Part shown: piece after piece, positions 140 to 12,243 of the stretch
How positions within the stretch are numbered: the first letter of the stretch is position 1
Layout of the letters: every line of letters begins with the position of its first letter
From: Bacteroidota bacterium
GTDB taxonomy: Bacteria > Bacteroidota > Ignavibacteria > Ignavibacteriales > Ignavibacteriaceae
Length of the DNA stretch: 12,243 nucleotides
Reading direction: 5' to 3'
Assembly: GCA_022567875.1 (NCBI GenBank)
Contig: JADFGB010000012.1
Coordinates: 1 to 12,243, forward strand
Notes under the pieces: generated by a model
What the model was told of the DNA's origin: nothing
The model's input: the letters and a program-made list of their open reading frames with translations, nothing else
Databases searched by the model: none
Made by a program: the position numbers and the translations under genes

Positions 140-1390
140 ATGAAACGTAAAATACAAATTCTACCCTCAGGCATCTCATTAGTAGATAAGAAATGGGGTG
201 GATTTTATAGAGGCGGTACCTATTTGTTAATAGGCCCAAGAAAATCAGGCAGAACATTAATAGCACTCCAATATGCTTTAGAATGTGCAAAGCAAAAAGA
301 AGTTTGCCTATTTTTTACAAGTATTCGTCCTAAAGATTTAATGATAATGGCAGCTTCTATAGATTTTGACCTTCAGTATTATATGAATAAAAATCTAATA
401 ATTGTTATCAGAGTTGCTCCACCAAATGAACTTTATGAGGATGTAAATAATGATGACTTTTTGGTTGAATACTTAAATGATATTGTAACTGTTGTTGATC
501 AGCATAGACCAAATAAATTAGTATTTGACGAATTAACACAGTTTATTGGATTCTCGAATCTTGAAAGTCTTAATCAAGTATTTAGACAAACAACTGAAAT
601 TATTGAAGAATCTGATATTACAAGTCTTTATATACTTGGTCAGCCTGCAGCTCCTTCTTCAAGGGCACTTATAGAAACATTATCACTTTCTGCAACCGGT
701 ATTATAACACTCGATAAATCTGATGAAATAGAAGGGGAAAGTAAAAGTGAAACTGAAAGTGGTTTCATTACTATTACTCCAAACGTTGGACATACAGAAG
801 GGAAATTTACAGCTAAATTTTTTATTGAACCCTATAAAGGTGTAACTACCGAAAAAACTACAGACTTTAGTGTTGATACACCTGCAACTCCCTTAAAAGA
901 AAGTAGTGAATATACTTCGTTATCAGATATAGAAATTCCTGATGAAAAATTTTCTGTATCAAGTTTTTATTCAGAAACCGATTTTAAACTTATACTGAAT
1001 AATCAAATAGCACTGTTCAAAAGTACCGGACAATCTTTTTCAGTAATCTCATTCAAGTTAAATGATGTTATTGTTAATAAAAATTTATTAACATTAAATC
1101 AACTTCAGAATGCAATTAGATTATCAACCGATAAAAAAGATAAAATCTGTGTAGTAGAAGATAAAGTTTTGGTTCTACTTACAAGAGGAGAACAAAAAAG
1201 TACTAACAATCTGATTAGCAGAATAAAATCAAATTTACCTGTGAATAACGAAACTGATATGAAAAACTTATTAGATAATATATCAGTTTTTGCAGTTAAT
1301 CCTGATGACACAATTAATAGTGCTGAAGATGTTTTTAATAAAATATCTAAAGAATCATTTGAAACAAGTAAAAAAATATTTTTCCAATAA
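140..1390 (+). CDS. KaiC/RecA-superfamily protein with degenerate C-terminal GGDEF-like domain; probable regulator
   Basis: This is a 416-aa cytoplasmic protein without a signal peptide. Residues 1-190 follow the KaiC/RAD55-like RecA fold: an N-terminal P-S-G-x-x-x-x-D entry, a P-loop GPRKSGRT at 32-39, and Walker B LVFDE at 127-131. The P-loop Lys is Arg38. The Glu pair that KaiC places before 'SPED..AAS.GWDL' is replaced by Ser61-Ile62, although the following PKDL...AASIDFDL segment aligns well. Hydrolysis is therefore doubtful. A Ser/Thr/Glu-rich linker (about 190-270) leads to a region (about 272-412) with the GGDEF strand pattern, including FSVISFKLND near 300 and DKVLVLL at 341-347. Its GGDEF signature is lost (VVEDKV), and no RxxD inhibitory site sits in the expected place. 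The gene ends 11 bases before the TPR/barrel gene. By analogy with PelD, which has a degenerate GGDEF domain, it may sense a nucleotide for the synthase; this role is inferred. Confidence 0.8.
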   Translation: MKRKIQILPSGISLVDKKWGGFYRGGTYLLIGPRKSGRTLIALQYALECAKQKEVCLFFTSIRPKDLMIMAASIDFDLQYYMNKNLIIVIRVAPPNELYEDVNNDDFLVEYLNDIVTVVDQHRPNKLVFDELTQFIGFSNLESLNQVFRQTTEIIEESDITSLYILGQPAAPSSRALIETLSLSATGIITLDKSDEIEGESKSETESGFITITPNVGHTEGKFTAKFFIEPYKGVTTEKTTDFSVDTPATPLKESSEYTSLSDIEIPDEKFSVSSFYSETDFKLILNNQIALFKSTGQSFSVISFKLNDVIVNKNLLTLNQLQNAIRLSTDKKDKICVVEDKVLVLLTRGEQKSTNNLISRIKSNLPVNNETDMKNLLDNISVFAVNPDDTINSAEDVFNKISKESFETSKKIFFQ

Positions 1391-1401
1391 GAGATAAAGC
1401 A

Positions 1402-4305
1402 ATGAAAAGAATATCAATCATTATCATAGCAATTTTATTAGTACTAAGTTCAGTTCAATTTACAAATGCTCAGAGACGTTCTGATGTTTTTAAATTACAA
1501 GCACAAAAGAAAATGCTTGTTGGTCGTTACGGTGAAGCAATAGACCTTTTGAACAAATACATATCTGCAAAACCACAAAAAGCTGACGGATATAATTTGC
1601 GTGGATTAAGTTTTGAAAAAAGGAAAGTATATGAATACGCAGTTTATGATTTTCGTTCAGCAAGAAAACTTCAACCCCAGAGCAAGCAGATAAGTACAAA
1701 TTTAGCTCGTGCATCAGCGGCTTGGAAGTCATTGTTGTATAACAATATTGAAGGTTATAAAAGAGAGATAGCAATTGATCCAAGTGTACCTGTAAATTAT
1801 TTGAATATTGGCAAATCTTATAAACATCTTGGTAAATGGGGTATAGCTGAGGAATGGTACGATAAATATCTTACTCTTGAAGAAGCTTCATCCGATGAAA
1901 TAATTAGATATTCTGAAATACTTGCTAAAAATGGTCATATTAAAAAGGGTGAACCAATATTAAAAAGATACACAGAAAAATATCCTAAAGACCAGAGGCT
2001 ATGGTCAAGATACGGATATTTTGTTCTATGGCTTGGTAAAAATAAAACTGCTATTGATGCATTCGAAAACGCACTTGCAATTCGTCCATATTTTAAAGAA
2101 GCCTTAGATGGCTTAGACAGAGCAAATGGTAAACCATACATCTATTCTATTAATGATACTTCTGTATATAGAAAAGGACGTATTGTAAAGAAAAAAACAA
2201 AACGATTTGAGTATCATATTGATCGATATTATAGATTATTAAAAAGAAGACCAAATGATAATGCTTTACGTTTTACTTTAATTAACGCATTAGTGAAAGT
2301 AGAAAGATTTGTAGAGGCAGAAGCGCAATTAAAGATATTTACCGAAAATGGTGTTGAACCTGAAAGAGTTGAAACTTTAACAGCAGAAGTAGATGCCAAA
2401 AAAGAAAGTGTTATTCAGATTAGAATAACACAATATACGGAAAAGATTAAAACAGATCCAAAAAATAAGAAAATTGCTTTGAAGCTTGCTGGATATTATG
2501 CAGGTTTAAGCGATTATGATAGTGCTCTTGAAATTTTAACTGAATATTTAAATAGAGTCCCCGGGACGAACCCTGACATAAGATTTCTTGTTGTAAAATA
2601 TTCTGCTTGGAATTATGATTTTGATAAAGCTGATGAAGAAATTAAAACGTTGCTAAAAAGTTATCCTAGCAATTTAAAATATCAATTGTTACAAGGTCAG
2701 ATCTCTGTTTGGGCTGTAAGAGAACTTGACGAAGCTAGAGATTATTTAGAGAATGTATTAAGACAGGAACCTAATAATATTTACGCAAATGTATCAATGG
2801 TTACTCTAAACTCCTGGCAGAAAAATTTTGAAGAAGCTAAAGGATATTTAGAAGTTTCCAAAAATTTAAGTCCAAATTCAAACATGGTAATAACTACAGA
2901 ACAATTCTATTTAAGGGCATTATCTGCTAATGAAGGATTGAAAATTTTGCTAATTAGAGCTGATGCAGGACAGTTAGCAATGGATGGTGATTATGAGAGT
3001 GCAGTTGATAAATATGATGAATATTTATCAAAAATTACAGCTCCAACAAGACAAGAACTTTTGGAATATGCAGACATATTATTTGCTGCAAAACATTACG
3101 ATAGAGCAGTAACTTCTTATGATCAAATTTTAGAAGAAGGTGATGATTTTGATGCGGAACTGTTAAGAGCGAGAGCACTGTTGTGGACAGCTGATTCTGC
3201 TGCTGCATTAAATCAATTCAAATTATTAGCTGTAAATCATCCTGAAAGCTACGAAGCATATTTATATTTAGGTGAAGCTTATGCTAAGATGCAAGAATAT
3301 GATGAAGCTAAAGATGTTTATGAAAAGATGTTAGAACCATCTGATGATCCAAATAAAATTCCATTAGATTCAACTCAGATTAATATAATAAATGCAAGAA
3401 AGGGCTGGTTACCATCAGGTAGTGGAATTGGTGATATATTTGCAACTTTTCCAAGTTATATGGCGTTGAATCCACAAAGCACATATTTTGCAGACAACCA
3501 AGACTTTTCATTCAACAAGGTCGGTTTAGGTATGCAATTAGGTTTAACCAGTTTTATGTCCGCAGGTGTAGTATATAATAGGACTCATTTACAAAGTTCA
3601 TTTTTAAGCAATGATCTAACATCATTTAAAGGACAATTTGTTTTCAGGTTATCTGATTATATAACTACCTCATTTAGCTTTGGAACACAAAGAGATCTAT
3701 TTGGTAATAAACGTAATATATCTGATATAATGTTTAAAGCTGAAGACTTAGCTGAATACTCATTAGTTGCTTCATTTGAGAACAACGATGCACGAGTTAT
3801 TCTGATGTCTCCAAATTTAATTGGATTTTCTAACTTCACAGTAGATATGTTTATAATAAACGGATTTTATTTACCATCTTCTATAGTTAAATTATCAGGT
3901 TACTTCCGTTATGCAACTATATCCGATGGAAATTCATTTAATGATTTACAGTTACGCTTAGGTAAGAAATTCTATAAAGACATTTTCATAGGCTATGAAT
4001 TTGGTTACGCTCATTATAAATTTGTTAACGTGCTTTATTATTCACCTCAAAATTATGATACACATAGTTTATGGATGGAATGGAACGCTAAAAAATCTAA
4101 AAAAGTTAGATTAAATTTAGGCGGTAAGTTTGGATATGCACCAAGTATAAATTATATTCTGAGAGAAGGTTATGGAGAAATCTTTTATACACCGGTTCCT
4201 TTTTTCACTCTTAACGGAAGAATTGGTGCATCAAGTTCTTTTAGATCAGATGCCAGCTACAACACAATATATGTTACATTATCAGCTTACTGGAGTTTCT
4301 TTTAG
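1402..4305 (+). CDS. TPR-repeat outer-membrane beta-barrel protein, probable exopolysaccharide export porin
   Basis: This 967-aa exported protein has a signal peptide at residues 1-23 (MKR, an Ile/Leu-rich core, then FTNA|QRRS). Residues about 30-660 are successive tetratricopeptide helices, with typical motifs such as GRYGEAIDLLNKYI, YDSALEILTEYL and EAYLYLGEAYAKMQEYDEA. From about 666 the sequence turns into alternating Gly/aromatic amphipathic strands and ends in LSAYWSFF. The terminal Phe is the usual barrel-assembly signature, and the tail resembles YaiO-type barrels. A periplasmic TPR superhelix joined to an outer-membrane barrel is the layout of BcsC, PgaA and PelB, which carry glycans across the outer membrane. 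With a GT2 synthase downstream, the same role is inferred. It follows the KaiC-like gene by 11 bases and is probably co-transcribed. A hairpin lies 3' of it. Confidence 0.88.
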   Translation: MKRISIIIIAILLVLSSVQFTNAQRRSDVFKLQAQKKMLVGRYGEAIDLLNKYISAKPQKADGYNLRGLSFEKRKVYEYAVYDFRSARKLQPQSKQISTNLARASAAWKSLLYNNIEGYKREIAIDPSVPVNYLNIGKSYKHLGKWGIAEEWYDKYLTLEEASSDEIIRYSEILAKNGHIKKGEPILKRYTEKYPKDQRLWSRYGYFVLWLGKNKTAIDAFENALAIRPYFKEALDGLDRANGKPYIYSINDTSVYRKGRIVKKKTKRFEYHIDRYYRLLKRRPNDNALRFTLINALVKVERFVEAEAQLKIFTENGVEPERVETLTAEVDAKKESVIQIRITQYTEKIKTDPKNKKIALKLAGYYAGLSDYDSALEILTEYLNRVPGTNPDIRFLVVKYSAWNYDFDKADEEIKTLLKSYPSNLKYQLLQGQISVWAVRELDEARDYLENVLRQEPNNIYANVSMVTLNSWQKNFEEAKGYLEVSKNLSPNSNMVITTEQFYLRALSANEGLKILLIRADAGQLAMDGDYESAVDKYDEYLSKITAPTRQELLEYADILFAAKHYDRAVTSYDQILEEGDDFDAELLRARALLWTADSAAALNQFKLLAVNHPESYEAYLYLGEAYAKMQEYDEAKDVYEKMLEPSDDPNKIPLDSTQINIINARKGWLPSGSGIGDIFATFPSYMALNPQSTYFADNQDFSFNKVGLGMQLGLTSFMSAGVVYNRTHLQSSFLSNDLTSFKGQFVFRLSDYITTSFSFGTQRDLFGNKRNISDIMFKAEDLAEYSLVASFENNDARVILMSPNLIGFSNFTVDMFIINGFYLPSSIVKLSGYFRYATISDGNSFNDLQLRLGKKFYKDIFIGYEFGYAHYKFVNVLYYSPQNYDTHSLWMEWNAKKSKKVRLNLGGKFGYAPSINYILREGYGEIFYTPVPFFTLNGRIGASSSFRSDASYNTIYVTLSAYWSFF

Positions 4306-4377
4306 AATTGTGTAAGCGAAAATATTTTGTTAAGAATTAATTAATATAAACAAAATAAATAAAGAAATATAAATCTT

Positions 4378-4424
4378 TGATATCCTGTTTAAGAGTAAAC
4401 TTTTTGAAATTAGACAGGATATTA
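4378..4424 (+). terminator. Hairpin with following T-rich run between the TPR/barrel and SGNH genes
   Basis: ATATCCTGT (4380-4388) pairs exactly with ACAGGATAT (4414-4422). The stem extends inward to 4392/4410 with one G-T wobble, and outward to 4378/4424 with another. The loop is 17 bases (4393-4409). ACTTTTATT follows at 4424-4432, so on the + strand it could act as an intrinsic terminator or attenuator. It separates the first two genes from the SGNH gene. Confidence 0.55.
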
Positions 4425-4460
4425 CTTTTATTGATAAACTATTAAATTATAAAATTTTCC

Positions 4461-4466
4461 GGGAGG
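4461..4466 (+). promoter_or_regulatory. Strong Shine-Dalgarno GGGAGG fixing a GTG start
   Basis: GGGAGG sits six bases upstream of GTG at 4473 and supports that start over internal ATGs. Its strength stands out here: the other genes of the AT-rich part mostly have weak AGAG or AAGG sites. Confidence 0.7.
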
Positions 4467-4472
4467 ATTATT

Positions 4473-5864
4473 GTGGTTAGTGCTCAAAAATTGAATTTAA
4501 CTTTTTCTGCTAAGAAATTTTTACTATTTGTAATCATTCTAATGTTTGTTCCTTTTACAAATATTACAAATGCACAAAGAAGTCTATTCAATATATCAAA
4601 TGAAGGATTATTGGTTACTTTAATAAATAATGTAACTAATAAAGAGAAAAATCTAAATGCTGATAATAATATATATATAGATTTTACCAAAGATAATATT
4701 AGTGTGAATGACGAGCTAAATGTATTAACAAAAACAAACAACAAAAGAATTTACGGAAAATTTGTACCTATAACAGGAAACGTTAAAGAACTCTATAAAT
4801 TTTTTAAAGCTTTGAAAGGAAGCAGAACCAAGAAAATAAGAATAGCTCATTATGGGGATTCAATATTATTAGGTGATGTAATTACAGAAAATCTAAGACA
4901 AAATTTTCAAAATAAATTTGGAGGTGATGGGGTTGGTTTTTTATCAATAAAACCTGATGATATAAGAATGAAAAGAACAATAAGACAAACTGTTTACGGA
5001 AATTGGATAATGGGTTCAATTACTAAGGGAAATCCAAAACATTTTCCAATCGGAATTAGCGGCTTAACTGCAAAAGCAACCGGGAACAGCAGGGTAAAAT
5101 ATCAAACTACAAAATTTATGAGAACATCACGATCTTTTAAAACAGCAAGAATTTTCTACAGTAATGCAAAATCTTCTTCTTCAATAAAATATTCTTTAGA
5201 TGGTAGAAAATTAATATCAAAAAAATTAAGGCCAGGTTCAGATATTAATGAATTAGTACTAAAATCATCACATTTAGGAAAAACATTAGATATAAATTTC
5301 GGAAGTGCAGCAGGCACATATTTTTATGGTGTAAGTTTTGAGACTGGAAATGGAGTTTATGTTGATAATTTTCCTCTTACCGGTAATTCCGGCGTTTCTT
5401 TAACATTCCTAAAGGAGAATACATTACAAAAATTTGATAAATATCTTAATTATGGATTGATAATTATTCAATTTGGTGTAAATGCAACCCAGCTTACTAT
5501 GAATTTTAAATGGTATAAAAATAAAATGGTAAGTGTTATTAAACATTTTAAGAAATCTTTTCCAAATGCAAGTATTTTAGTTATAAGCGTTGGTGATAAA
5601 AGTATAAAGAGAGGCTCTAGATTTGTTACAGATCCTAAGGTTATACAATTATTGAAAACACAAAAAGAGATAGTAAAAAAAGCAAATGTAGCTTTTTGGA
5701 ACCTTTATGAGGCAATGGGTGGGAAAAATTCTTTAAATAAATGGGTTAATGCAGGTCCTCCCTTAGGGTTAAGAGATTATATTCATTTTACAAATTTAGG
5801 TGGAAAAGTAGTAGCTGATTTAATTACTAAAGCTCTTATGAAAGAATATAATAAAATGAGATAA
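4473..5864 (+). CDS. Secreted SGNH/GDSL hydrolase-like protein with large inserted beta-rich segment
   Basis: This 463-aa protein has a GTG start supported by GGGAGG and a signal peptide ending near FTNITNA|QRS (residue 34). SGNH block I is HYGDSILLGD with candidate nucleophile Ser130. Block III is QFGVNA with Asn337. Block V is DYIH with Asp435 and His438, so a Ser-His-Asp triad is present. About 200 residues separate blocks I and III, far more than in a minimal SGNH fold. The insert, about 190-305, looks beta-rich and could be a carbohydrate-binding module. The block I context (GDS, LR, FGGDGVGF) resembles periplasmic Bacteroidota SGNH proteins often found near O-acetylation genes. De-O-acetylation or transfer of acyl groups on the exported glycan is a plausible role but is inferred. 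No MBOAT acyltransferase gene is visible in the window. Confidence 0.83.
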   Translation: MVSAQKLNLTFSAKKFLLFVIILMFVPFTNITNAQRSLFNISNEGLLVTLINNVTNKEKNLNADNNIYIDFTKDNISVNDELNVLTKTNNKRIYGKFVPITGNVKELYKFFKALKGSRTKKIRIAHYGDSILLGDVITENLRQNFQNKFGGDGVGFLSIKPDDIRMKRTIRQTVYGNWIMGSITKGNPKHFPIGISGLTAKATGNSRVKYQTTKFMRTSRSFKTARIFYSNAKSSSSIKYSLDGRKLISKKLRPGSDINELVLKSSHLGKTLDINFGSAAGTYFYGVSFETGNGVYVDNFPLTGNSGVSLTFLKENTLQKFDKYLNYGLIIIQFGVNATQLTMNFKWYKNKMVSVIKHFKKSFPNASILVISVGDKSIKRGSRFVTDPKVIQLLKTQKEIVKKANVAFWNLYEAMGGKNSLNKWVNAGPPLGLRDYIHFTNLGGKVVADLITKALMKEYNKMR

Positions 5865-6032
5865 TATTAAAAAATGTTGATATATGCATTATTATGAGAT
5901 CCTGGATTAAATTAGTCTTAAAGCATTACAACATATTATAAAAAAAGCTTATAAATGATGAAAAAACAAATAATTATACTGGCATTATAATTGAATTAAG
6001 ATACTATCAAAGTATAAAAAAAGAGAAATAAT
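5865..6032. other. 168-base AT-rich intergenic region before the synthase gene
   Basis: No convincing gene is present. It holds small inverted repeats, ATACT/AGTAT at 6001-6005/6011-6015 and TTATAA/TTATAA at 5936-5941/5949-5954, and a weak AGAG ribosome site just before the synthase ATG. A promoter for the 6033-10823 unit probably lies here, but none can be assigned with confidence. Confidence 0.4.
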
Positions 6033-7433
6033 ATGAAATTAAGTCAAAAAGTTAAAAGAAATGTATTTACAATAAAGAATAAAAAAGAACAGAAATATGA
6101 TATTCAAAGCTCTGGAAAATATTTAAAAAGAATACTTATAAGCGGTCTATTATCATTAGTTCTTTTATCTATAATTATATATACATTACCTCAAACCGTT
6201 CTTGATGTAAGTTCTTTGCTTGAATATACTACAATAGTAGCATTAGTAATCTTTCTTTTTGTATTGCTCTTTAGATATTTTGCAATTCTCATAATGGCTT
6301 ATCTATATATTAATGAATATACCTACAAACCAACAACAGGGTTTTTCCCGTTTGTATCTATTATTGTTCCTGTTTATAACGAAGAAAAAGTTGTTGCGCA
6401 ATCTGTAAAATCGTTATTAGAACTTAATTACTCAAATTATGAAATTATCATAGTTAATGACGGCTCAACAGATAGCACAAAAGAAGTTGCTGAAGCTATA
6501 GTTGGCTATCAAAAGGGAAAACTAACAGATGTTAAAGTTTCTTTAATAAGTAAACCTAACGGCGGTAAAGCACAAGCTTTAAATGCCGGAATTAAATATT
6601 CAAAAGCTGAAATTGTTCTATGCATGGACGGTGACTCTCAGTTATCACCTGATTCCATAAAAGTAGCTGTAAGACACTTTAGCAACCCTGAAATAGGAGC
6701 TGTTGCAGGTAATGTAAAAGTAATTAACAGAGGTAAATTATTAACAGACTTACAAGCTCTTGAGTATATAGAAGGTCTTAATATGGCAAGAAGTGCACAG
6801 AGTTTTGTTCATTTGGTAAATATAATTCCTGGTCCTATCGGCTTATTCAGGAAAAAAGCAATTGAAGAAGCAGGATTTTATTCAAGTGATACATTTGCTG
6901 AAGATGCAGATCTTACATTAAAAATTTTAGCAAACGGCTGGAAAATATACTATGAACCAAACTCTATCTCCTATACTGAAGCTCCGGAAAAACTACATGA
7001 GTTGTTAAAACAGAGATACAGATGGACAAGAGGAATTATTCAGTCAATTAGAAAGCATAAAAAATTGATGATAAATCCTACAATTAACTTTGGTGATACA
7101 TTTATTATGTGGACAATGGCCTACGAAGCACTTATATGGCCAGTAATGAATATAGCTGCAAATTTGTTCTTTATTGTTGCTGCAATATTCTTCGGATTTA
7201 CATCGCTAATTTTCTTCTGGTGGGCAGGATTAGCTCTGTTAGACTTAGTAACAGCCTTATACTGTATAGCAGTAGAAAAAGAAGAATTTAGACTTGTACC
7301 ATATTCTTTAATATACAGAATGGTGTTCATTCTTATAATTGATGTTAGTAAAGTGATGTCAACAATAGAAGAATTCTTAGGCATAAAAATGTCCTGGGGA
7401 AAATTGGAAAGAGTTGGAGCTTTAAAATCATAA
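6033..7433 (+). CDS. Processive family 2 glycosyltransferase, membrane polysaccharide synthase (PgaC/BcsA/HasA type)
   Basis: This 466-aa inner-membrane protein has two N-terminal membrane segments (about 32-52 and 66-92), a cytosolic GT-A domain (about 105-340), and about three C-terminal membrane segments (within 357-440). GT2 landmarks are complete: VSIIVPVYNEE near 108, VNDGS with Asp143, the metal-binding DGD at 199-201, AEDAD with presumed catalytic base Asp291, and the acceptor motif QRYRW at 327-331 that marks processive synthases. The closing W-G-K-L-E-R resembles the end of PgaC/IcaA. It should polymerise a UDP-activated sugar into a beta-linked chain while extruding it. The sugar cannot be read from sequence. 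There is no PilZ domain, so any nucleotide control must come from another protein. It heads a four-gene unit, 36 bases before the next gene. Confidence 0.92.
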   Translation: MKLSQKVKRNVFTIKNKKEQKYDIQSSGKYLKRILISGLLSLVLLSIIIYTLPQTVLDVSSLLEYTTIVALVIFLFVLLFRYFAILIMAYLYINEYTYKPTTGFFPFVSIIVPVYNEEKVVAQSVKSLLELNYSNYEIIIVNDGSTDSTKEVAEAIVGYQKGKLTDVKVSLISKPNGGKAQALNAGIKYSKAEIVLCMDGDSQLSPDSIKVAVRHFSNPEIGAVAGNVKVINRGKLLTDLQALEYIEGLNMARSAQSFVHLVNIIPGPIGLFRKKAIEEAGFYSSDTFAEDADLTLKILANGWKIYYEPNSISYTEAPEKLHELLKQRYRWTRGIIQSIRKHKKLMINPTINFGDTFIMWTMAYEALIWPVMNIAANLFFIVAAIFFGFTSLIFFWWAGLALLDLVTALYCIAVEKEEFRLVPYSLIYRMVFILIIDVSKVMSTIEEFLGIKMSWGKLERVGALKS

Positions 7434-7469
7434 TTATTAATTAACTAATTTATTAAAAAGAGGTAACTC

Positions 7470-7916
7470 ATGGAACTTATACCGATTCTATCAACAATAA
7501 TCCTTGTTGCTACTATAAGTACTTTTATATTAGCAATTGGTGCTTATATACTCTATAAAATTAGAGAAAGCAGAGGAGAATTATATGTGGCAGCCGGACC
7601 ATCTGAGGTTAAAGCTGAGTTAGTAACACCAGCAGCTGCTCCTGTACGTGAAGTTGAAAGAGCACCTGCACAGGTTGTTGTTCAACAGCCAGTAGCAAGC
7701 AGTGGTCCTAAACCACAACCAATATTTATTCAACAACAATTTAGACCGGAAGTTAAACCTTTACATTCAAGAGTTGGAGTACCGACTTCTCAGTTTAACG
7801 CATCCGGATTTAGTGCCACACAAAGCCCAAGAGATTCTAAATTTATGAAATATACTTCTGAAGGTTACGTGTCAGCTAAAGAAGATGTAAATGCAGGAGC
7901 ATTAAAGTGGAAATAA
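7470..7916 (+). CDS. Small single-pass membrane protein with Ala/Pro/Gln-rich tail, unknown function
   Basis: This is a 148-aa protein with one membrane segment (about 5-30) followed by YKIRESRG, whose positive charges suggest the remainder is cytoplasmic. Residues about 45-110 are Ala/Pro/Val/Gln-rich and probably disordered. The last 25 residues (SKFMKYTSEGYV...GALKWK) look more ordered and could be a docking segment. AAGAGGT lies just upstream of the ATG. The final 10 bases overlap the next gene. Its place directly after the synthase recalls small synthase partners such as PgaD, but there is no sequence resemblance I can claim. No family is recognised. Confidence 0.72.
   Translation: MELIPILSTIILVATISTFILAIGAYILYKIRESRGELYVAAGPSEVKAELVTPAAAPVREVERAPAQVVVQQPVASSGPKPQPIFIQQQFRPEVKPLHSRVGVPTSQFNASGFSATQSPRDSKFMKYTSEGYVSAKEDVNAGALKWK
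7895..7899 (+). promoter_or_regulatory. Shine-Dalgarno AGGAG inside the upstream gene, fixing a GTG start at 7907
   Basis: AGGAG lies seven bases before GTG 7907 and within the coding end of the small membrane protein gene. This supports a 10-base gene overlap and translational coupling of the two products. Confidence 0.65.
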
Positions 7917-9808
7917 AATCCAACAAAAGTAAAGGCGGAATTAATCAAGGATTAATCATATTTAGTGGGTTAATCTTTGTAATTGGAGCATTATTAACTT
8001 ATTACTTTATCCTTCGTGGTGTATTCGGAAATTTTAATACTGATAATCTTATTCCGAGTCCTAAGATAGTAAAAAGTGCGTTTGCCAAAGAAAAACCACA
8101 TATTGCAATACTTTATTCTCAATACACAGAAAATATGTTGCCTGAAGGCAGCACTTGGTTAAATGATAATATAACTACTTGGAAAAAGTTTCTTGATAAT
8201 TCCAATAATCTTTATGATATCATTTCTGATGAAACAATTGAGTTAGGTCAACATTATAAGTACGGCTTAATTGTTCTCCCAGGTTCTAAATCGTTAAGTG
8301 AAAGGGAAGTTGTAAACCTAAAAAAATATATTGACAGAGGCGGTAGCGTTTTTGCAACAAGTGGTACAGCTTCTTACTCAGATGACGGCAAATGGAGAGG
8401 CTGGCAATTCTTTAATAAAGTATTTGGGATCAATTTTGTTAAAGCAATAGAAAATGATAGCTTTACAAAAATCCACACTATAAGAGGTGGGTTACCAATA
8501 ACTGCAAATATTCCTACAGGATTTCCCTTAAAAGTTGCCACTTGGGACAAACCTATTGCTGCAGAAGTAATGGATCCAAGAACCGTTCAAGTAAGTTTCT
8601 GGTATAACTACAGACTTGAAAATGGTTTGGCAAGAGAGAATATTTTACATACAGCAGGAATAGTCTATGGAAATTATGGAAAAGGAAGATTTGTTTGGAT
8701 GGGATTTGAGATTAACTCTGTTATTGGTGTTCAGGAAGATTATATTTTCTTTGACAGACTATTCAATAATTCTATCAATTGGTTAACATACAAACCACTT
8801 GCATATTTTAATGAATGGCCAAGAGGATATAAAGCTGCTGCAATTATTACACCTACACTTACTCAGGATATTTATAATATCAATAACTTATTAAGTGTAT
8901 TAAAATCAGAAAGAGTAAGAGCAACATTTTTTGTAGATCCTTATATAGCTGAACAAAACAAAAAATTAGTCAGATCTTTATCTAGATATGGAGATGTAGG
9001 AGCATTAGTAGATATTGGTTATTTAGCATCTATTAATGATACATCTAACAGCTTAGATGATTATAACACACAATTAGAAAAACTAAATAGTGCAAAATTA
9101 ATCTTAGAATCTGTTACAGGTAAGTCTGTAACCGGAGCCATACCTTACTACGGTTTATTTGATGAAAATACTATTCAGGCTCTAATTGATGCAAAATATA
9201 AGTTTGTTATTACTGATTCATTAACGGATAGATCGGTTCCAAAAACAATAATACGTGGTGATGAGAAAATTATATCAATAACTAAAACAGCACGTGATGA
9301 TTATGAAGTTATTAGAGATTTTGGCTTAACTTTACCTAACTATCAATTATACACATATCAAGAAGATATTGATAGAATATTATTTGAAGGTGGGTTGTAT
9401 GTATTTAAAATGCATACGGAATATCAATGTACACCTAAAAATATTGGTGTTGTTAGAAAAGTAATTAAAGAATTAAAAAGAAAAAAATTTTGGATAACAA
9501 CTGCATCAGAATTAAGCAGGTGGTTCGAAAGAAAAAATAACGTTGAAGTAAAGGTAGAACCAAGAGGTGAAAGTAGAACAGTTATTACTGTTTCTAATCC
9601 AGGTAATCAAACAGTAAATGGTTTAGTTGTAAAAGTTAATCTAAATCAACCTGCAAGAAGAGTTTCGCTAAGCTCCGAAATTATTGGTACAAAGTTAGCC
9701 AAATTTGAATATGATAAAGCAAATAATATGGTATATCTGTATATAAATGATTTAGAAAAAGGTGAATCTCGTACATATTATTTAGATTATACACTACCCA
9801 ATTCTTGA
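7907..9808 (+). CDS. Membrane-anchored protein with amidotransferase-like and degenerate NodB deacetylase-like domains
   Basis: This 633-aa protein has a GTG start and one N-terminal membrane segment (about 15-36), with the rest probably periplasmic. Residues about 62-230 resemble a class I glutamine-amidotransferase/ThuA-like fold (HIAILYSQ, GLIVLPGSKSLS, YIDRGGSVFATSG), with no nucleophilic Cys at the usual place. Residues about 305-530 follow the NodB polysaccharide deacetylase: RVRATFFV matches the conserved strand after motif 1. By that spacing the TFDD motif is T315-P-T-L318, so both Asp residues are lost. Motif 2 His positions are Leu367 and Gly371. Motif 3 RPPYG is I412-P-Y-Y-G. The motif 5 His (KMH503) is kept. 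Residues about 540-633 form a beta-sandwich-like tail (ITVSNPGNQTVNG). Order and folds recall the PelA oxidoreductase-like and deacetylase regions. It may bind rather than deacetylate the glycan; this is inferred. Confidence 0.82.
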   Translation: MEIKSNKSKGGINQGLIIFSGLIFVIGALLTYYFILRGVFGNFNTDNLIPSPKIVKSAFAKEKPHIAILYSQYTENMLPEGSTWLNDNITTWKKFLDNSNNLYDIISDETIELGQHYKYGLIVLPGSKSLSEREVVNLKKYIDRGGSVFATSGTASYSDDGKWRGWQFFNKVFGINFVKAIENDSFTKIHTIRGGLPITANIPTGFPLKVATWDKPIAAEVMDPRTVQVSFWYNYRLENGLARENILHTAGIVYGNYGKGRFVWMGFEINSVIGVQEDYIFFDRLFNNSINWLTYKPLAYFNEWPRGYKAAAIITPTLTQDIYNINNLLSVLKSERVRATFFVDPYIAEQNKKLVRSLSRYGDVGALVDIGYLASINDTSNSLDDYNTQLEKLNSAKLILESVTGKSVTGAIPYYGLFDENTIQALIDAKYKFVITDSLTDRSVPKTIIRGDEKIISITKTARDDYEVIRDFGLTLPNYQLYTYQEDIDRILFEGGLYVFKMHTEYQCTPKNIGVVRKVIKELKRKKFWITTASELSRWFERKNNVEVKVEPRGESRTVITVSNPGNQTVNGLVVKVNLNQPARRVSLSSEIIGTKLAKFEYDKANNMVYLYINDLEKGESRTYYLDYTLPNS

Positions 9809-9836
9809 TATTATATATTTAAGGTAAATTATAAAA

Positions 9837-10823
9837 ATGAAAATTAAATATTTAACTACTTTTATTATAGCAATGTTAATCTATTTTACCGGGTGTGTTA
9901 ATTCACTAACCTCACCTACTTCAGGTGTAGGTGCTCAAACTGGAAGCATTGCAATTTTTTTTCCTGTAACAAGTGATTCTATTGGATATGACAAAACATT
10001 GATAAATTATTCTGTATCTCCGGTTGTAAGCAATAAATCTGTTGAATTATATGTTAACGGGAAATATTCAGCAACTTATTTTACGAATGATCCGGCTACA
10101 ACTCTTGAATTAAAGTTTGATCAATCAAAGATAGGTACAAAAATTAGTTATTATTTAAAATATTATGATTCTAATGGTACTGCAGAGATTAGTGATACTA
10201 TGAAAAACATACTAATTACTGAACCTAGAATTAAACCTAATATACCAAGCGATTTAAGATTAGTAATGTTACAAGGGACATCATCTTATTCTGTAAATAT
10301 TTCTTGGAAAGACCAACCTAAAGGTGAAGTATACTATGAGGTATGGAGAAGAGATGGATTTACAGCTGATTATATAAGACAATTAGGTCCATTGGCCCCA
10401 GGTACATTTAACGTAAATGATAATAATCTTTTACCTAATGTGGTTTATTATTATAAGGTAAGAGGGCAAAATAATTTTGGTTATTCTGAATTTAGTGAAG
10501 CTGTAAATACAGCCGGAACTGGTGGATCAGGTACATTTCCTCCTCCTACCGGCTTGACAGGTGTAGCATTAAGTTCTAGTGTTGTAAAATTGATTTGGCA
10601 AGATAACAGTAATAATGAGAATTTTTTCAAAATTGAGAGAAATGATAACTGGTCAGCTTGGTCTAAATTCGAAACTATAGCTACTGTTTCTATGGATGTA
10701 ACAACATTTACTGACAATACAGGTGGTATAACAGGCGGACACGAATATCTTTACAGAATAAAAGCATATTCTAATTCAGATTCTTCTTGGTCAAATGTAG
10801 CTTCTGTCAAAACTCCATTATAA
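9837..10823 (+). CDS. Lipoprotein with Ig-like and two fibronectin type III domains
   Basis: This is a 328-aa protein. The N-terminus has a hydrophobic segment ending in the lipobox-like IYFTGC with Cys20, so it is probably a lipoprotein. Residues about 30-128 look like an Ig-like beta domain. Two FN3 domains follow, about 133-226 (start PSDLRLV, then VNISWKD, YYEVWRR, YYYKVRGQN) and about 234-328 (start PTGLTGV, then VKLIWQDNSNNENFFKIER, YLYRIKAYS). The ribosome site AAGG stands about 11 bases before the ATG, and the gene is 28 bases after the NodB-like gene. A hairpin overlaps its stop, so it ends the unit. FN3 domains in such bacteria usually mediate binding to glycans or protein, so it may hold or sort the polymer at the cell surface. 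This role is inferred. Confidence 0.8.
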   Translation: MKIKYLTTFIIAMLIYFTGCVNSLTSPTSGVGAQTGSIAIFFPVTSDSIGYDKTLINYSVSPVVSNKSVELYVNGKYSATYFTNDPATTLELKFDQSKIGTKISYYLKYYDSNGTAEISDTMKNILITEPRIKPNIPSDLRLVMLQGTSSYSVNISWKDQPKGEVYYEVWRRDGFTADYIRQLGPLAPGTFNVNDNNLLPNVVYYYKVRGQNNFGYSEFSEAVNTAGTGGSGTFPPPTGLTGVALSSSVVKLIWQDNSNNENFFKIERNDNWSAWSKFETIATVSMDVTTFTDNTGGITGGHEYLYRIKAYSNSDSSWSNVASVKTPL

Positions 10824-10880: not shown

Positions 10881-11318
10881 ATGGTTGGTAATGTGGAAGC
10901 GAAATTTAAAATAAATCTACGATTATTTTCAGCTTTGGGTCAAAATTTACGTTCTCCGTTTTTGGTGCTTGACCTAAAAGGAAGAATTTTATTTTCTAAT
11001 GAAACAGCTGACAAACTGTTTCAATTTCTAGAAAAAAACAAAATAATATTCTCATACTTTGACGAAAAATCAGCTGAAAAGTTTTATGAACTTTTTAATG
11101 AACATCTTTCCACCGGAGAAATTCAACGGCGTGATGCTCTCGGCCATGTGCAACGGAATTATTTCATCCTGGCGGTCGCCGTCAAACTCGATGACCGCAA
11201 CATCATACCAGCCCATCGGGCCGGCAAGGCAGTGAACCATGATGGAGGCAACGCCATTATAGCCCGCAGCCGCACCGGACTGCCCGGCCTCGTGCGCCGG
11301 ACCCCAGATGCTCTGTAA
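10881..11318 (+). CDS. PAS-domain protein, N-terminal part only; frame continues into unrelated sequence
   Basis: The first about 80 residues look like a real gene. A short N-terminal helix is followed by a PAS fold start, SPFLVLDLKGRILFSNETADKLF (around residues 27-49), then a helical segment to HLSTGEIQ near residue 82. PAS domains sense ligands or redox state and usually precede a kinase, GGDEF or regulator domain, which is missing here. From about 11,110-11,130 base composition changes and the frame becomes Arg/Gly/Ala-rich, which I take as out-of-frame phage sequence up to the stop at 11318. The start is uncertain: ATG 10881 has no clear ribosome site, and GTG 10893 is an alternative. 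It lies after the hairpin, so it should have its own promoter. Confidence 0.6.
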   Translation: MVGNVEAKFKINLRLFSALGQNLRSPFLVLDLKGRILFSNETADKLFQFLEKNKIIFSYFDEKSAEKFYELFNEHLSTGEIQRRDALGHVQRNYFILAVAVKLDDRNIIPAHRAGKAVNHDGGNAIIARSRTGLPGLVRRTPDAL

Positions 11319-11357
11319 GGCGGTGCCTTGCTCTAGTGCGCTGTCTGCCATCTCCAT
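11070..11357 (-). CDS. Small phage-like protein, C-terminus lost or altered at the junction
   Basis: The frame reads leftward from ATG 11357 (MEMADSALEQGTALQ...). AGAGGG lies four bases upstream and overlaps the stop of the preceding gene; Met3 (11351) is an alternative start. The first about 77-80 residues, down to MAESITPLNF, belong to the GC-richer DNA. The last about 15 residues (SGGKMFIKKFIKLFS) lie in or past the junction and are probably not part of the true protein. It has a Gly/Ala-rich stretch and a WYDVAVIEFDGDRQDEI segment that suggests beta strands. No family is recognised. It follows the 86-aa gene by eight bases and should share its promoter. Confidence 0.55.
   Translation of the reverse strand: MEMADSALEQGTALQSIWGPAHEAGQSGAAAGYNGVASIMVHCLAGPMGWYDVAVIEFDGDRQDEIIPLHMAESITPLNFSGGKMFIKKFIKLFS
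11107..11130. other. Composition junction between AT-rich bacterial and GC-richer phage-like sequence
   Basis: Left of this point the DNA is AT-rich with + strand genes. Right of it the DNA is about half GC with - strand genes. The bases from CACCGG to ATTCAA (11111-11126) could belong to either side, so the breakpoint is only placed within this range. Two open frames on opposite strands cross it. There is no integrase gene, tRNA or obvious duplicated core nearby. Confidence 0.75.
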
Positions 11358-11365
11358 CGGTCCCT

Positions 11366-11626
11366 CTAGGTGAGTGTCAGTTGAGCGCGGATCGCCTTGA
11401 CGGTTGCCCGCGCGGAGCGGGCCATGCTGTGCATACCCTCGAAGTCGAAACCGATTACATCAGAGTAATAACGAGCGTCACTCAAAAGTTCGGTCCATTC
11501 GTCATTGCTTCCTTCGCAAATATAGCGGCGACCTTTTATGGCTGTGATACATGGTGATGGAAGCTCACGCTCAACATGGTCATCATAGAACATTTGCGGA
11601 ATGGCTGCTATTAGCAGTGTTTTCAT
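11366..11626 (-). CDS. 86-aa phage-like hypothetical protein
   Basis: The start is placed at ATG 11626 (MKTLLIAAIPQMF) because AGAGG sits five bases upstream of it (11632-11636). An in-frame ATG at 11647 would add seven residues but would put this ribosome site inside the gene. The protein is mixed alpha/beta with an acidic middle (CEGSNDEWTELL) and a helical, basic C-terminal part (MARSARATVKAIRAQ). No domain is recognised. It is the first gene after a likely extended -10 promoter and ends eight bases before the next gene. Compact size, spacing and strong ribosome site fit an early phage gene. Confidence 0.65.
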   Translation of the reverse strand: MKTLLIAAIPQMFYDDHVERELPSPCITAIKGRRYICEGSNDEWTELLSDARYYSDVIGFDFEGMHSMARSARATVKAIRAQLTLT

Positions 11627-11631
11627 ATCAG

Positions 11632-11636
11632 CCTCT
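11632..11636 (-). promoter_or_regulatory. Shine-Dalgarno AGAGG deciding the start of the 86-aa gene
   Basis: On the - strand AGAGG-CTGAT-ATG gives a five-base spacing to ATG 11626. This selects that ATG over the upstream one at 11647. Confidence 0.6.
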
Positions 11637-11653
11637 GTGCGTTTCAAAGAGCG

Positions 11654-11672
11654 ATGGTCTCACTTGGACCAT
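11654..11672 (-). promoter_or_regulatory. Leader hairpin upstream of the 86-aa gene
   Basis: ATGGTC (11654-11659) and GACCAT (11667-11672) form a six-base-pair stem with a seven-base loop. It would lie at or next to the 5' end of a transcript from the adjacent promoter. A role as a 5' stem-loop that protects the message is possible but inferred. Confidence 0.4.
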
Positions 11673-11678
11673 ACCCTT

Positions 11679-11687
11679 AGTATAACA
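11679..11687 (-). promoter_or_regulatory. Extended -10 promoter (TGT-TATACT) directed leftward
   Basis: On the - strand the sequence TGTTATACT has the TGn extension and a -10 hexamer TATACT at 11684-11679. At 17-base spacing the -35 candidate is GATACA, with only three matches to TTGACA, so the extended -10 carries the call. It would drive the 86-aa gene and the one after it. Confidence 0.5.
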
Positions 11688-11701
11688 GGTTCCGCCCTGT
11701 T
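11684..11701. repeat. Inverted repeat AACAGG-N6-CCTGTT overlapping the -10 element
   Basis: Perfect six-base arms at 11684-11689 and 11696-11701 flank TTCCGC. The repeat overlaps the upstream half of the extended -10 element and fills the promoter spacer, a position typical for a repressor operator. No regulator gene is visible. Confidence 0.45.
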
Positions 11702-11702
11702 T

Positions 11703-11738
11703 GTATCGCCATCAGGTGCAAACGTATCCCATCAGGTG
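11703..11738. repeat. Two near-identical direct repeats upstream of the promoter
   Basis: GTATCGCCATCAGGTG (11703-11718) and GTATCCCATCAGGTG (11724-11738) differ by one base of length. The shared CCATCAGGTG cores are 20 bases apart, about two helical turns, so two protein molecules could bind on one face. They lie just upstream of the extended -10 promoter. Confidence 0.5.
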
Positions 11739-11749
11739 GAATAACTCAG

Positions 11750-11866
11750 TCACAATGTTAAAATCCAATAAGTGCATAAGCCCCCAACTGCCCATAGCCA
11801 CAGAGTTCGGGGCGCAGAGTAAGCTATCCAAATAAAGAACAGCAGTCCAACACTAACAATTATCAT
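11750..11866 (-). CDS. 38-aa two-helix membrane miniprotein
   Basis: The frame starts MIIVSVGLLFFIWIAYSAPR and ends CTYWILTL. Two hydrophobic stretches (about 2-17 and 22-37) are separated by a short SAPRT turn, giving a helical hairpin in the membrane. GGAGG stands five bases before the ATG (11872-11876), a strong ribosome site. Its ATG overlaps the TGA of the preceding 23-aa gene (ATGA), which implies coupled translation. Tiny phage membrane proteins of this kind can act in lysis, exclusion or host membrane change. None of these can be chosen from the sequence. Confidence 0.6.
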   Translation of the reverse strand: MIIVSVGLLFFIWIAYSAPRTLWLWAVGGLCTYWILTL

Positions 11867-11934
11867 GTGAGCCTCCAGATTGCATAGAGTGAGATTGCCC
11901 AGGCAAACATTGCCCAATTCCAGCCCTCAAGCAT
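11863..11934 (-). CDS. 23-aa Trp-rich membrane miniprotein
   Basis: The frame reads MLEGWNWAMFAWAISLYAIWRLT: one hydrophobic helix with four Trp residues and a basic end. It starts 18 bases after the stop of the 81-aa gene, with a weak ACAGG site. Its TGA overlaps the next ATG as ATGA, and its last codons carry the ribosome site of the 38-aa gene. It could be a true miniprotein or a leader that governs translation of its neighbour. No family is recognised. Confidence 0.45.
   Translation of the reverse strand: MLEGWNWAMFAWAISLYAIWRLT
11872..11876 (-). promoter_or_regulatory. Shine-Dalgarno GGAGG for the 38-aa gene
   Basis: GGAGG-CTCAC-ATG on the - strand has ideal spacing. It lies within the coding end of the 23-aa frame and is the main evidence that the 38-aa frame is translated. 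Confidence 0.6.
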
Positions 11935-11952
11935 TGGAGAGCCTGTTAAATG

Positions 11953-12198
11953 TCACCGTTTCCACCTGTCCAATGCCGCGCTGATCTCTGCCCGGCTCAT
12001 GTCAGTGTAACGAACATGGGGAACGTCAGTCAGCCAGCGTTTCAGCAACAATCGTGTGATTCGTCCGTCTGGCCCTTTGATCCGAACCCATTTCCGACCT
12101 ATTTTGACCTGCACAACGCGCATCCCGGACCCAATACGCGGGATCGGATCACCGGGACCGGGATGAATAACATAGGGCTCAAAGATGGCAATGGCCAT
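11953..12198 (-). CDS. 81-aa basic phage-like hypothetical protein
   Basis: The protein begins MAIAIFEPYVIHPGPGDPIP. Its middle is rich in Lys/Arg and beta-prone residues (VVQVKIGRKWVRIKGPDGRITRLLLKRW), suggestive of a small SH3-like barrel. The tail MSRAEISAALDRWKR is probably a helix. Such basic small proteins may bind nucleic acid, but this is a guess from composition. GAGG lies just upstream of the ATG, and the start overlaps the stop of the upstream gene as TGATG, so translation is probably coupled. No family is recognised. Confidence 0.65.
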   Translation of the reverse strand: MAIAIFEPYVIHPGPGDPIPRIGSGMRVVQVKIGRKWVRIKGPDGRITRLLLKRWLTDVPHVRYTDMSRAEISAALDRWKR

Positions 12199-12243
12199 CA
12201 GGGCCTCGACTCAGGTAAACTGATCTCGCCAGCGTCCAACATG
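12198..12243 (-). CDS. C-terminal end of a phage-like gene (5' part outside the window)
   Basis: On the - strand an open frame enters from the right edge and ends ...MLDAGEISLPESRP with TGA at 12200-12198, which shares its A with the ATG of the 81-aa gene. Only about 14 residues are visible, so nothing can be said about function. The TGATG overlap and same strand support it as a real gene end. Confidence 0.4.
   Translation of the reverse strand, partial: MLDAGEISLPESRP

Follow-up and report, generated by a model that had tools for sequence, protein, structure and literature searches.

A conserved Ignavibacteriales gene cluster as a candidate undescribed synthase-dependent exopolysaccharide secretion system

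We report that seven proteins encoded together on a 12,243-bp contig of an Ignavibacteriaceae metagenome-assembled genome (MAG; assembly GCA_022567875.1, contig JADFGB010000012.1) form a conserved system, and that the same operon is present outside the class, one such locus belonging to Rhodothermales. The system probably serves the synthase-dependent secretion of an exopolysaccharide (surface glycan), and it is a good candidate for one that has so far gone undescribed. Its core comprises a KaiC-like ATPase, a tetratricopeptide repeat (TPR) protein with a predicted outer-membrane barrel, a processive family-2 glycosyltransferase (GT2), a 148-aa membrane protein (S148) and a NodB-like protein, accompanied by SGNH and FN3 proteins. 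An original prediction, drawn up from the DNA letters of this contig, had proposed such a system and a common function from gene context; the analysis presented here upholds co-occurrence, adjacency and the relationship of the synthase to a polysaccharide family, from which we infer a polysaccharide product.

Results

The window analyzed here is the entire contig (C72) of a draft MAG with 408 contigs and 77% completeness, and genes upstream of it are consequently cut off. All seven predicted open reading frames (ORFs) lie where the original prediction had placed them, tightly packed on the plus strand between positions 140 and 10,823, with an overlap between the S148 gene (7470–7916) and the NodB-like gene (7907–9808). 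Homologues that carry names come mostly from Ignavibacteriales, Ignavibacteriaceae, Bacteroidetes or Melioribacter MAGs.

Co-occurrence was determined in 59 genomes, comprising that of the window and relatives of the same genus, family and order, and adjacency in 56 non-redundant loci, where a neighbor was counted only if the contig leaves room for it. Loci without a GT2 gene (L055, L069) and duplicates (L072, L074, L093) were left out before adjacency was counted, and sequences shorter than a set minimum, as well as relatives with 92% or more identity to another, were excluded from the family sets. The GT2 (E ≤ 1e-100) and S148 (E ≤ 1e-6) genes are both present in the same 54 genomes and both missing from the same five (G005, G009, G018, G022, G027), so that their presence and absence coincide in 59/59 genomes, while NodB-like (E ≤ 1e-3) and KaiC-like (E ≤ 1e-40) genes were found in 55 and 56 genomes. 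All four families are absent from G005, G022 and G027; G009 (76% complete) retains part of the NodB-like gene and the KaiC-like gene, and G018 carries the KaiC-like gene only. S148 lies directly 3′ of GT2 in 56/56 loci, as expected from its description as a small synthase-adjacent membrane protein, and the NodB-like gene follows in 54/54. The TPR/barrel gene precedes the synthase in 42 of 44 loci (all but L079 and L080), and in 40 of 41 (all but L096) it has the KaiC-like gene in front of it. In L079 and L080 (genomes G042 and G040) the GT2-S148-NodB-FN3 block is intact and the KaiC-like gene lies on another contig. This gene order, kept in tens of loci, is not due to chance, and the scattering of homologues that would have counted against a common system was not encountered.

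A scan of 395 genomes of the phylum with the synthase profile (E ≤ 1e-60) yielded matches in 75, including strong relatives outside the order. Thirteen loci outside the class (L129–L141) carry the synthase (13/13), the TPR protein (12/13), the KaiC-like protein (11/13; L136 is cut, with a 16-bit match) and the NodB-like protein (12/13, in two copies in nine loci). S148 was detected by profile in nine of them; L132 is cut at this point, the gene at that position in L139 and L140 has no profile match, the L140 one showing by eye the same TM-plus-proline layout (TM, transmembrane), and L141 has room for one. Over the 81% that aligns, the L130 KaiC-like protein shares 100% identity with one from a Rhodothermales bacterium, and a 54% relative occurs in Rhodocaloribacter litoris. 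Neighboring genes differ in these loci: of three ORFs tested, those of L134 and L135 encode leucyl-tRNA synthetase on one side of the operon, and that of L137 a PQQ-propeller protein on the other.

The synthase (6033–7433, plus strand) matches PF00535 with E 8.6e-36, and its motifs DGD (199–201), AED (289–291) and QRYRW (327–331) are invariant in 44/44 sequences, an alignment of the window protein and 43 of 44 relatives kept (L041, at a contig end, was omitted). It thus carries the D, DxD, ED and QxxRW motifs of processive GT2 enzymes, with TM helices visible by eye, as had been predicted. Among curated families it scores highest against PgaC/IcaA (TIGR03937, 207.7 bits, cut-off 422.3), ahead of the XrtG-associated family (114.6), NodC (107.7) and cellulose synthase (TIGR03030, 73.5 bits, cut-off 699.1). 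All of these scores lie below the respective cut-offs, and this ranking does not place the enzyme with non-polysaccharide GT2 families, the grouping that would have undermined the prediction. In hhalign comparisons the synthase family aligns with E. coli PgaC at E 3.5e-37 and with BcsA at 2.2e-12, and matches in the PDB are headed by hyaluronan and chondroitin synthases, in a list that also includes cellulose synthases and non-polysaccharide GT2 enzymes. In the synthase tree the rows of the order all fall on one side of a branch with support 91/100. The placement of outgroups in this tree was discarded: the PgaC, NodC and BcsA branches are very long, and NodC fell among rows from outside the order.

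Scored with our synthase profile, two Bacteroidia proteins reach 293 and 273 bits, as compared with 175 for E. coli PgaC, 115 and 109 for NodC and 62 for BcsA. These nearest outside synthases among the yardsticks tried (L142, 1154 aa; L146, seen in part) have GT2 fused to NodB and GH18 domains, and may be part of a further glycan system. L142 resembles the cluster in pairing NodB with GT2, and differs from it in being one fused protein, with a strong PF01522 match (E 1.7e-32) and a GH18 domain. No other family of the cluster was detected in 20 kb of L142, and L142 and L143, the latter with the former among the weaker synthases, are without partners.

The S148 family (alignment of 52 rows) has one near-invariant N-terminal TM stretch, a Pro/Gln-rich linker and a conserved C-terminal motif, and we propose that it is a synthase subunit or tether.

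The NodB-like protein (7907–9808, plus strand) is predicted to be membrane-anchored by a helix (residues 14–40), followed by a GATase1/GH42-M-like domain (61–297), a degenerate NodB domain (303–545) and a C-terminal beta part; PelA matches both middle domains. Its NodB/polysaccharide deacetylase fold is borne out by an above-cut-off match to PF01522 (E 2.9e-7). The PelA-like modifying activity that had been attributed to it is not: the metal ligands are lost in 50/50 rows, with no D at 315–318 and no HxxxH within residues 303–545. Because of this loss the protein resembles a pseudo-deacetylase, and a role as metal-dependent deacetylase is unlikely. In two of eight loci compared (L070:9125-10855; L090), a second, downstream NodB-like gene has retained D, HxxxH and RPP, and active and dead copies may act side by side there.

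The TPR protein (1402–4305, plus strand) is the proposed exporter, with a signal-like N-terminus, TPRs at about residues 29–670 and a predicted C-terminal outer-membrane barrel (3433–4305). Many TPR families of Pfam match the first part, which substantiates the TPR half of the prediction; the barrel half is a reading of the C-terminal pattern, for which sequence comparison gave no solved relative. Conservation extends over the C-terminal 290 residues (mean column identity 42%), and 34 of 36 relatives have F, L, Y or W as their last residue. This region contains a Y[YF]SP motif in 24/37 members of the order and 11/12 outside it; E. coli BcsC has the motif too, PgaA does not, and it was found in 5/496 other ORFs longer than 200 aa. 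Comprising four residues, it is only a hint. Compared directly, the barrel profile gave P 0.13 against PgaA and P 0.023 against BcsC, neither of which is convincing.

The KaiC-like protein (140–1390, plus strand) combines a KaiC-like ATPase domain (residues 1–240; PF06745, E 5.9e-18) with a putative degenerate GGDEF-like domain (residues 279–404, approximately), and is proposed to be a BcsE-like cytosolic regulator. The KaiC fold is present in a structure model and Walker B is kept; the Walker A lysine is replaced by arginine in 29/38 sequences. Foldseek and VIA searches with this model returned KaiC/RecA-type chains (best 50 of 1942 matches; 50 entries of 998 chains), and since all matches listed are of this type they do not address the GGDEF-like half. 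For that half, the weakest domain call of the cluster, the succession of strands and helices that the model shows appears to fit GGDEF, and PF17853 (GGDEF_2) gives weak matches, below cut-off, in two of three tested homologues outside the order (E 7.4e-4 and 4.2e-3); of the predicted KaiC/GGDEF-like architecture, the KaiC fold holds and the tail is tentative. PF10995 (BcsE) matches 2/38 order members weakly, with a best E of 0.043. The layout fits BcsE better than PelD, to whose degenerate GGDEF domain the protein had been likened, and it differs from the KaiC clock ATPase in its single KaiC domain, altered Walker A and GGDEF-like tail. Further short KaiC copies, one or two per locus (about 240–280 residues matched, without the GGDEF-like tail), stand ahead of the main KaiC gene at L036/L074, L038, L052 and L059, in the window's genus and a few others.

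Upstream of the KaiC-like gene, a glycoside hydrolase family 9 (GH9) gene of about 550 aa with a signal-like N-terminus occupies 31 of the 35 loci with room for it. It matches positions 1–443 of the 444 of PF00759 (E 2.5e-74), and DAGD is present in 28/30 full-length copies. In 12 genomes tested, close copies (50–58% identity) were found in five of eight with the system and in none of four without it; weaker copies (30–34% identity) exist in G018, G022 and G032. The operon GH9 of G056, a genome we take to be that of Melioribacter roseus, has a computed mass of 58.0 kDa, in agreement with Mros2241, a 58-kD GH9 with a signal peptide in the excerpted text of PMC3534657. According to the same excerpts, Mros2241 and Mros0757 are the likely sources of cell-bound carboxymethylcellulase (CMCase) bands of 55–65 kD in M. 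roseus, Mros2241 is regarded as cellulose-degrading, and the products of some GT2 enzymes, Mros1224, 1401 and 1750 among them, might be cellulose, chitin, mannan or alginate; the gene cluster is not described in those excerpts.

Two further genes of the window encode accessory proteins. The SGNH/GDSL hydrolase-like protein (4473–5864, plus strand; signal-like N-terminus) matches PF13472 below cut-off (E 7.8e-4), and its assignment is sustained by residues G128, D129, S130, G335, N337, D435 and H438 (GDS and DxxH included), invariant in 14/14 sequences (the window and 13 others). Its gene lies between the TPR and GT2 genes in 12/48 loci and is optional. The FN3 protein (9837–10823, plus strand) is accessory; PF00041 (E 2e-7) and a lipobox-like N-terminal pattern, present in 36/43 sequences, agree with its description as an FN3 lipoprotein, and its gene lies 3′ of the NodB-like gene in 42/49 loci.

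A large PAS histidine kinase is encoded no more than 6 kb downstream in 40/40 loci with room. In the window, positions 10881–11132 (plus strand) encode the first 84 residues of such a multi-PAS histidine kinase/response-regulator hybrid of about 1094 aa, with 79% identity to an intact neighbor gene of L074. The remainder of the kinase (residues 92–1094) lies on C25, another contig of this MAG, with 89% identity to a genus mate, and GC content rises from 0.31 to about 0.50 in the tail (11133–12243). Because of this jump and of the kinase that breaks after residue 84 to resume on C25, positions from about 11,133 to 12,243 are wrongly joined onto the contig; this last 1.1 kb or so, foreign or misassembled, comes from another place and stands outside the system. 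Positions 11,100–12,243 gave no match in phage and plasmid collections, and an Rfam search returned no match.

Discussion

The organization of the cluster suggests how a surface glycan might be made and exported. The GT2 enzyme, whose catalytic motifs are intact, would polymerize a nucleotide sugar in the cytosol and thread the chain through the inner membrane. The TM stretch of S148 would lie against the synthase, with its proline-rich tail directed to the cytosol (positive-inside rule, applied by eye), where its conserved end may recruit the KaiC/GGDEF-like ATPase as BcsF recruits BcsE. In the periplasm the anchored NodB-like protein would take up the nascent chain as a binding or guiding subunit, not as a metal deacetylase, the TPR domain would gather it and the putative C-terminal barrel would export it. 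The GH9 enzyme found upstream in most relatives of the order could trim the polymer in the way BcsZ acts in cellulose secretion, the SGNH protein, in loci that have one, would attach acyl groups or remove them, and the FN3 protein and PAS kinase would be accessory and regulatory. We see roughly even chances that the polymer is a beta-1,4-linked glucan or glucosaminoglycan, and lean towards such a backbone because of the adjoining GH9 gene, the BcsC-like motif and the cell-bound CMCase that the excerpts of PMC3534657 report for M. roseus.

Parts of this plan recur in known systems, which supply the main alternatives. The cluster shares with Pga/Hms (E. coli pgaABCD, L094) PgaC-like GT2 motifs, a predicted TPR-barrel exporter, a NodB-fold protein and a small membrane protein near the synthase, and could be read as a divergent system for poly-beta-1,6-N-acetylglucosamine in which these four stand for PgaC, PgaA, PgaB and PgaD; PgaC is also the nearest curated family of the GT2 enzyme. 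We deem this quite unlikely, and rejected membership in Pga, on a synthase score of 207.7 bits against a cut-off of 422.3, the lack of an active NodB site in 50/50 sequences and a GATase1/GH42-M-like second domain instead of the PgaB hydrolase. The KaiC regulator is a further difference; S148 has one TM stretch, whereas PgaD has two, and no detectable similarity to one PgaD; and a GH9 enzyme, encoded in most members of the order, is not expected to cut a beta-1,6 chain. Resemblance to the type II Bcs system of E. coli (L095) comprises the KaiC/RecA-like and degenerate GGDEF layout described for BcsE and a BcsF-like single-TM tether. It extends to the YYSP motif, shared with BcsC, of the predicted TPR-barrel and to a glucanase in the cluster, which is GH9 here and GH8 in BcsZ. 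Membership in Bcs was nonetheless rejected: the synthase is far from BcsA (TIGR03030, 73.5 against 699.1 bits) without a PilZ match in Pfam, no receiver-like domain lies between the KaiC and GGDEF parts, and the RxxD I-site is found in 0/5 order sequences aligned. As for Pel, PelA likeness covers the middle domains of the NodB-like protein; PelF belongs to a different GT family, and PelA is an active deacetylase/hydrolase.

Within the preferred reading of a glycan secretion system, it is possible, though we hold it only tentatively, that the product is a cellulose-type beta-1,4-glucan, with a PgaC-like enzyme replacing BcsA/BcsB, GH9 replacing BcsZ, a BcsF-like S148, a BcsC-like exporter and a BcsE-like regulator. 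The upstream GH9 in 31/35 loci, a motif shared with BcsC and not PgaA, the BcsE-type domain layout and the cell-bound CMCase reported for M. roseus all point that way. Against it, GT2 aligns much better with PgaC than with BcsA and lacks a PilZ match, no BcsB-like gene was noticed in the cluster, GH9 is missing from the 13 loci outside the class, and sequences do not distinguish a glucan from a glucosamine backbone. FN3 and GH9 are common in cellulases, which raises the alternative that the cells use the cluster to attach to external cellulose and degrade it, with GH9, FN3 and barrel being digestive and the synthase making a minor glycan. M. roseus does digest cellulose with cell-bound enzymes (excerpts of PMC3534657), but GT2, S148 and the NodB-like gene show the strictest linkage in the cluster, and GH9 is lacking from the operons outside the class, which makes this alternative unlikely. 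It is very improbable that the genes are neighbors by inheritance only, on a conserved chromosomal stretch. All of them do keep the same order, near LexA and other housekeeping genes, but they are present and absent jointly, their block stays together in L079 and L080 apart from the KaiC gene, and they recur outside the class next to other neighbors.

Several results weigh against the glycan secretion reading, or against parts of it. The distribution is patchy, as order members G005, G487 and G494 had no synthase match in the phylum scan. Among class members outside the order, a 197-genome sample yielded 13 NodB-like matches, of which one is full-length (G173; its locus, L096, runs TPR-GT2-S148-NodB-FN3-GH9). 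Since the NodB-like family is this rare there, the system may have reached its second lineage by descent with loss or by transfer. The GH9 gene is not upstream in four of the 35 loci (L052, L065, L090, L092); in the genome of L052, a GH9 with 58% identity lies some 6 kb past the last KaiC copy. It was also not found in the window's MAG, although all four genus mates carry one, nor in any of L129–L141; it is therefore placed outside the widest core, and it is missing from the window itself because the contig starts too late to show the upstream gene. These GH9 genes could, moreover, serve cellulose feeding, as assumed in the excerpts of PMC3534657. The barrel profile found no solved barrel in the PDB, with two chance-level hits, and BCSC_C matches one of 17 members (E 0.075), barrels and TPRs telling little by sequence. 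In hhalign comparisons with single E. coli sequences, targets of low power, the NodB-like family gave nothing against PgaB, the KaiC-like family nothing against BcsE, and S148 a probability of 0.1% against PgaD. None of 38 order members matches a GGDEF family at E 0.1, none of the 25 Pfam families matched at this level being GGDEF. The BcsE-type I-site position reads DKKD in the window and SKKD in M. roseus, as opposed to the RxxD kept in 7/10 homologues outside the order (three of the seven near-identical), and exactly one GGDEF (PF00990) protein was found in 30/31 Ignavibacteriales genomes. Because of these three observations, control of the system by cyclic di-GMP (c-di-GMP) is doubtful. 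The single GGDEF proteins are mostly open frames of about 616–664 aa, present also in the synthase-less G005 and G018, and the c-di-GMP gene set is strikingly sparse in the Ignavibacteriales genomes scanned.

The combination of genes differs from Bcs, Pga, Pel and Alg, as had been predicted, and its parts list matches no described system in the literature searched. The cluster is not described among the matches listed there, a coverage with subscription papers and preprints outside it, and a term search of the main text of PMC7112194 found no Melioribacter, Ignavibacteri-, Rhodothermus or KaiC. Somewhat short of an even prospect, in our estimation, is the broader proposal that the cluster represents a further glycan-secretion architecture beside those four, with a core of its own (KaiC/degenerate GGDEF ATPase, TPR-barrel, PgaC-like synthase, S148 tether and GATase/pseudo-NodB periplasmic protein) that Ignavibacteriales and Rhodothermales have in common by descent or by transfer, and with synthesis gated by a KaiC-type ATPase and the polymer guided by a dead deacetylase.

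The NodB-like protein offers a natural case of a deacetylase fold with a lost metal site within a secretion cluster. If the proposed function holds, the cluster would constitute a dedicated surface-polymer machine of the Ignavibacteriales, a widespread and little-studied bacterial group in which the cultivated host Melioribacter roseus suits the testing of the system, and it would link KaiC-like ATPases to polysaccharide export beyond the enterobacterial BcsE.

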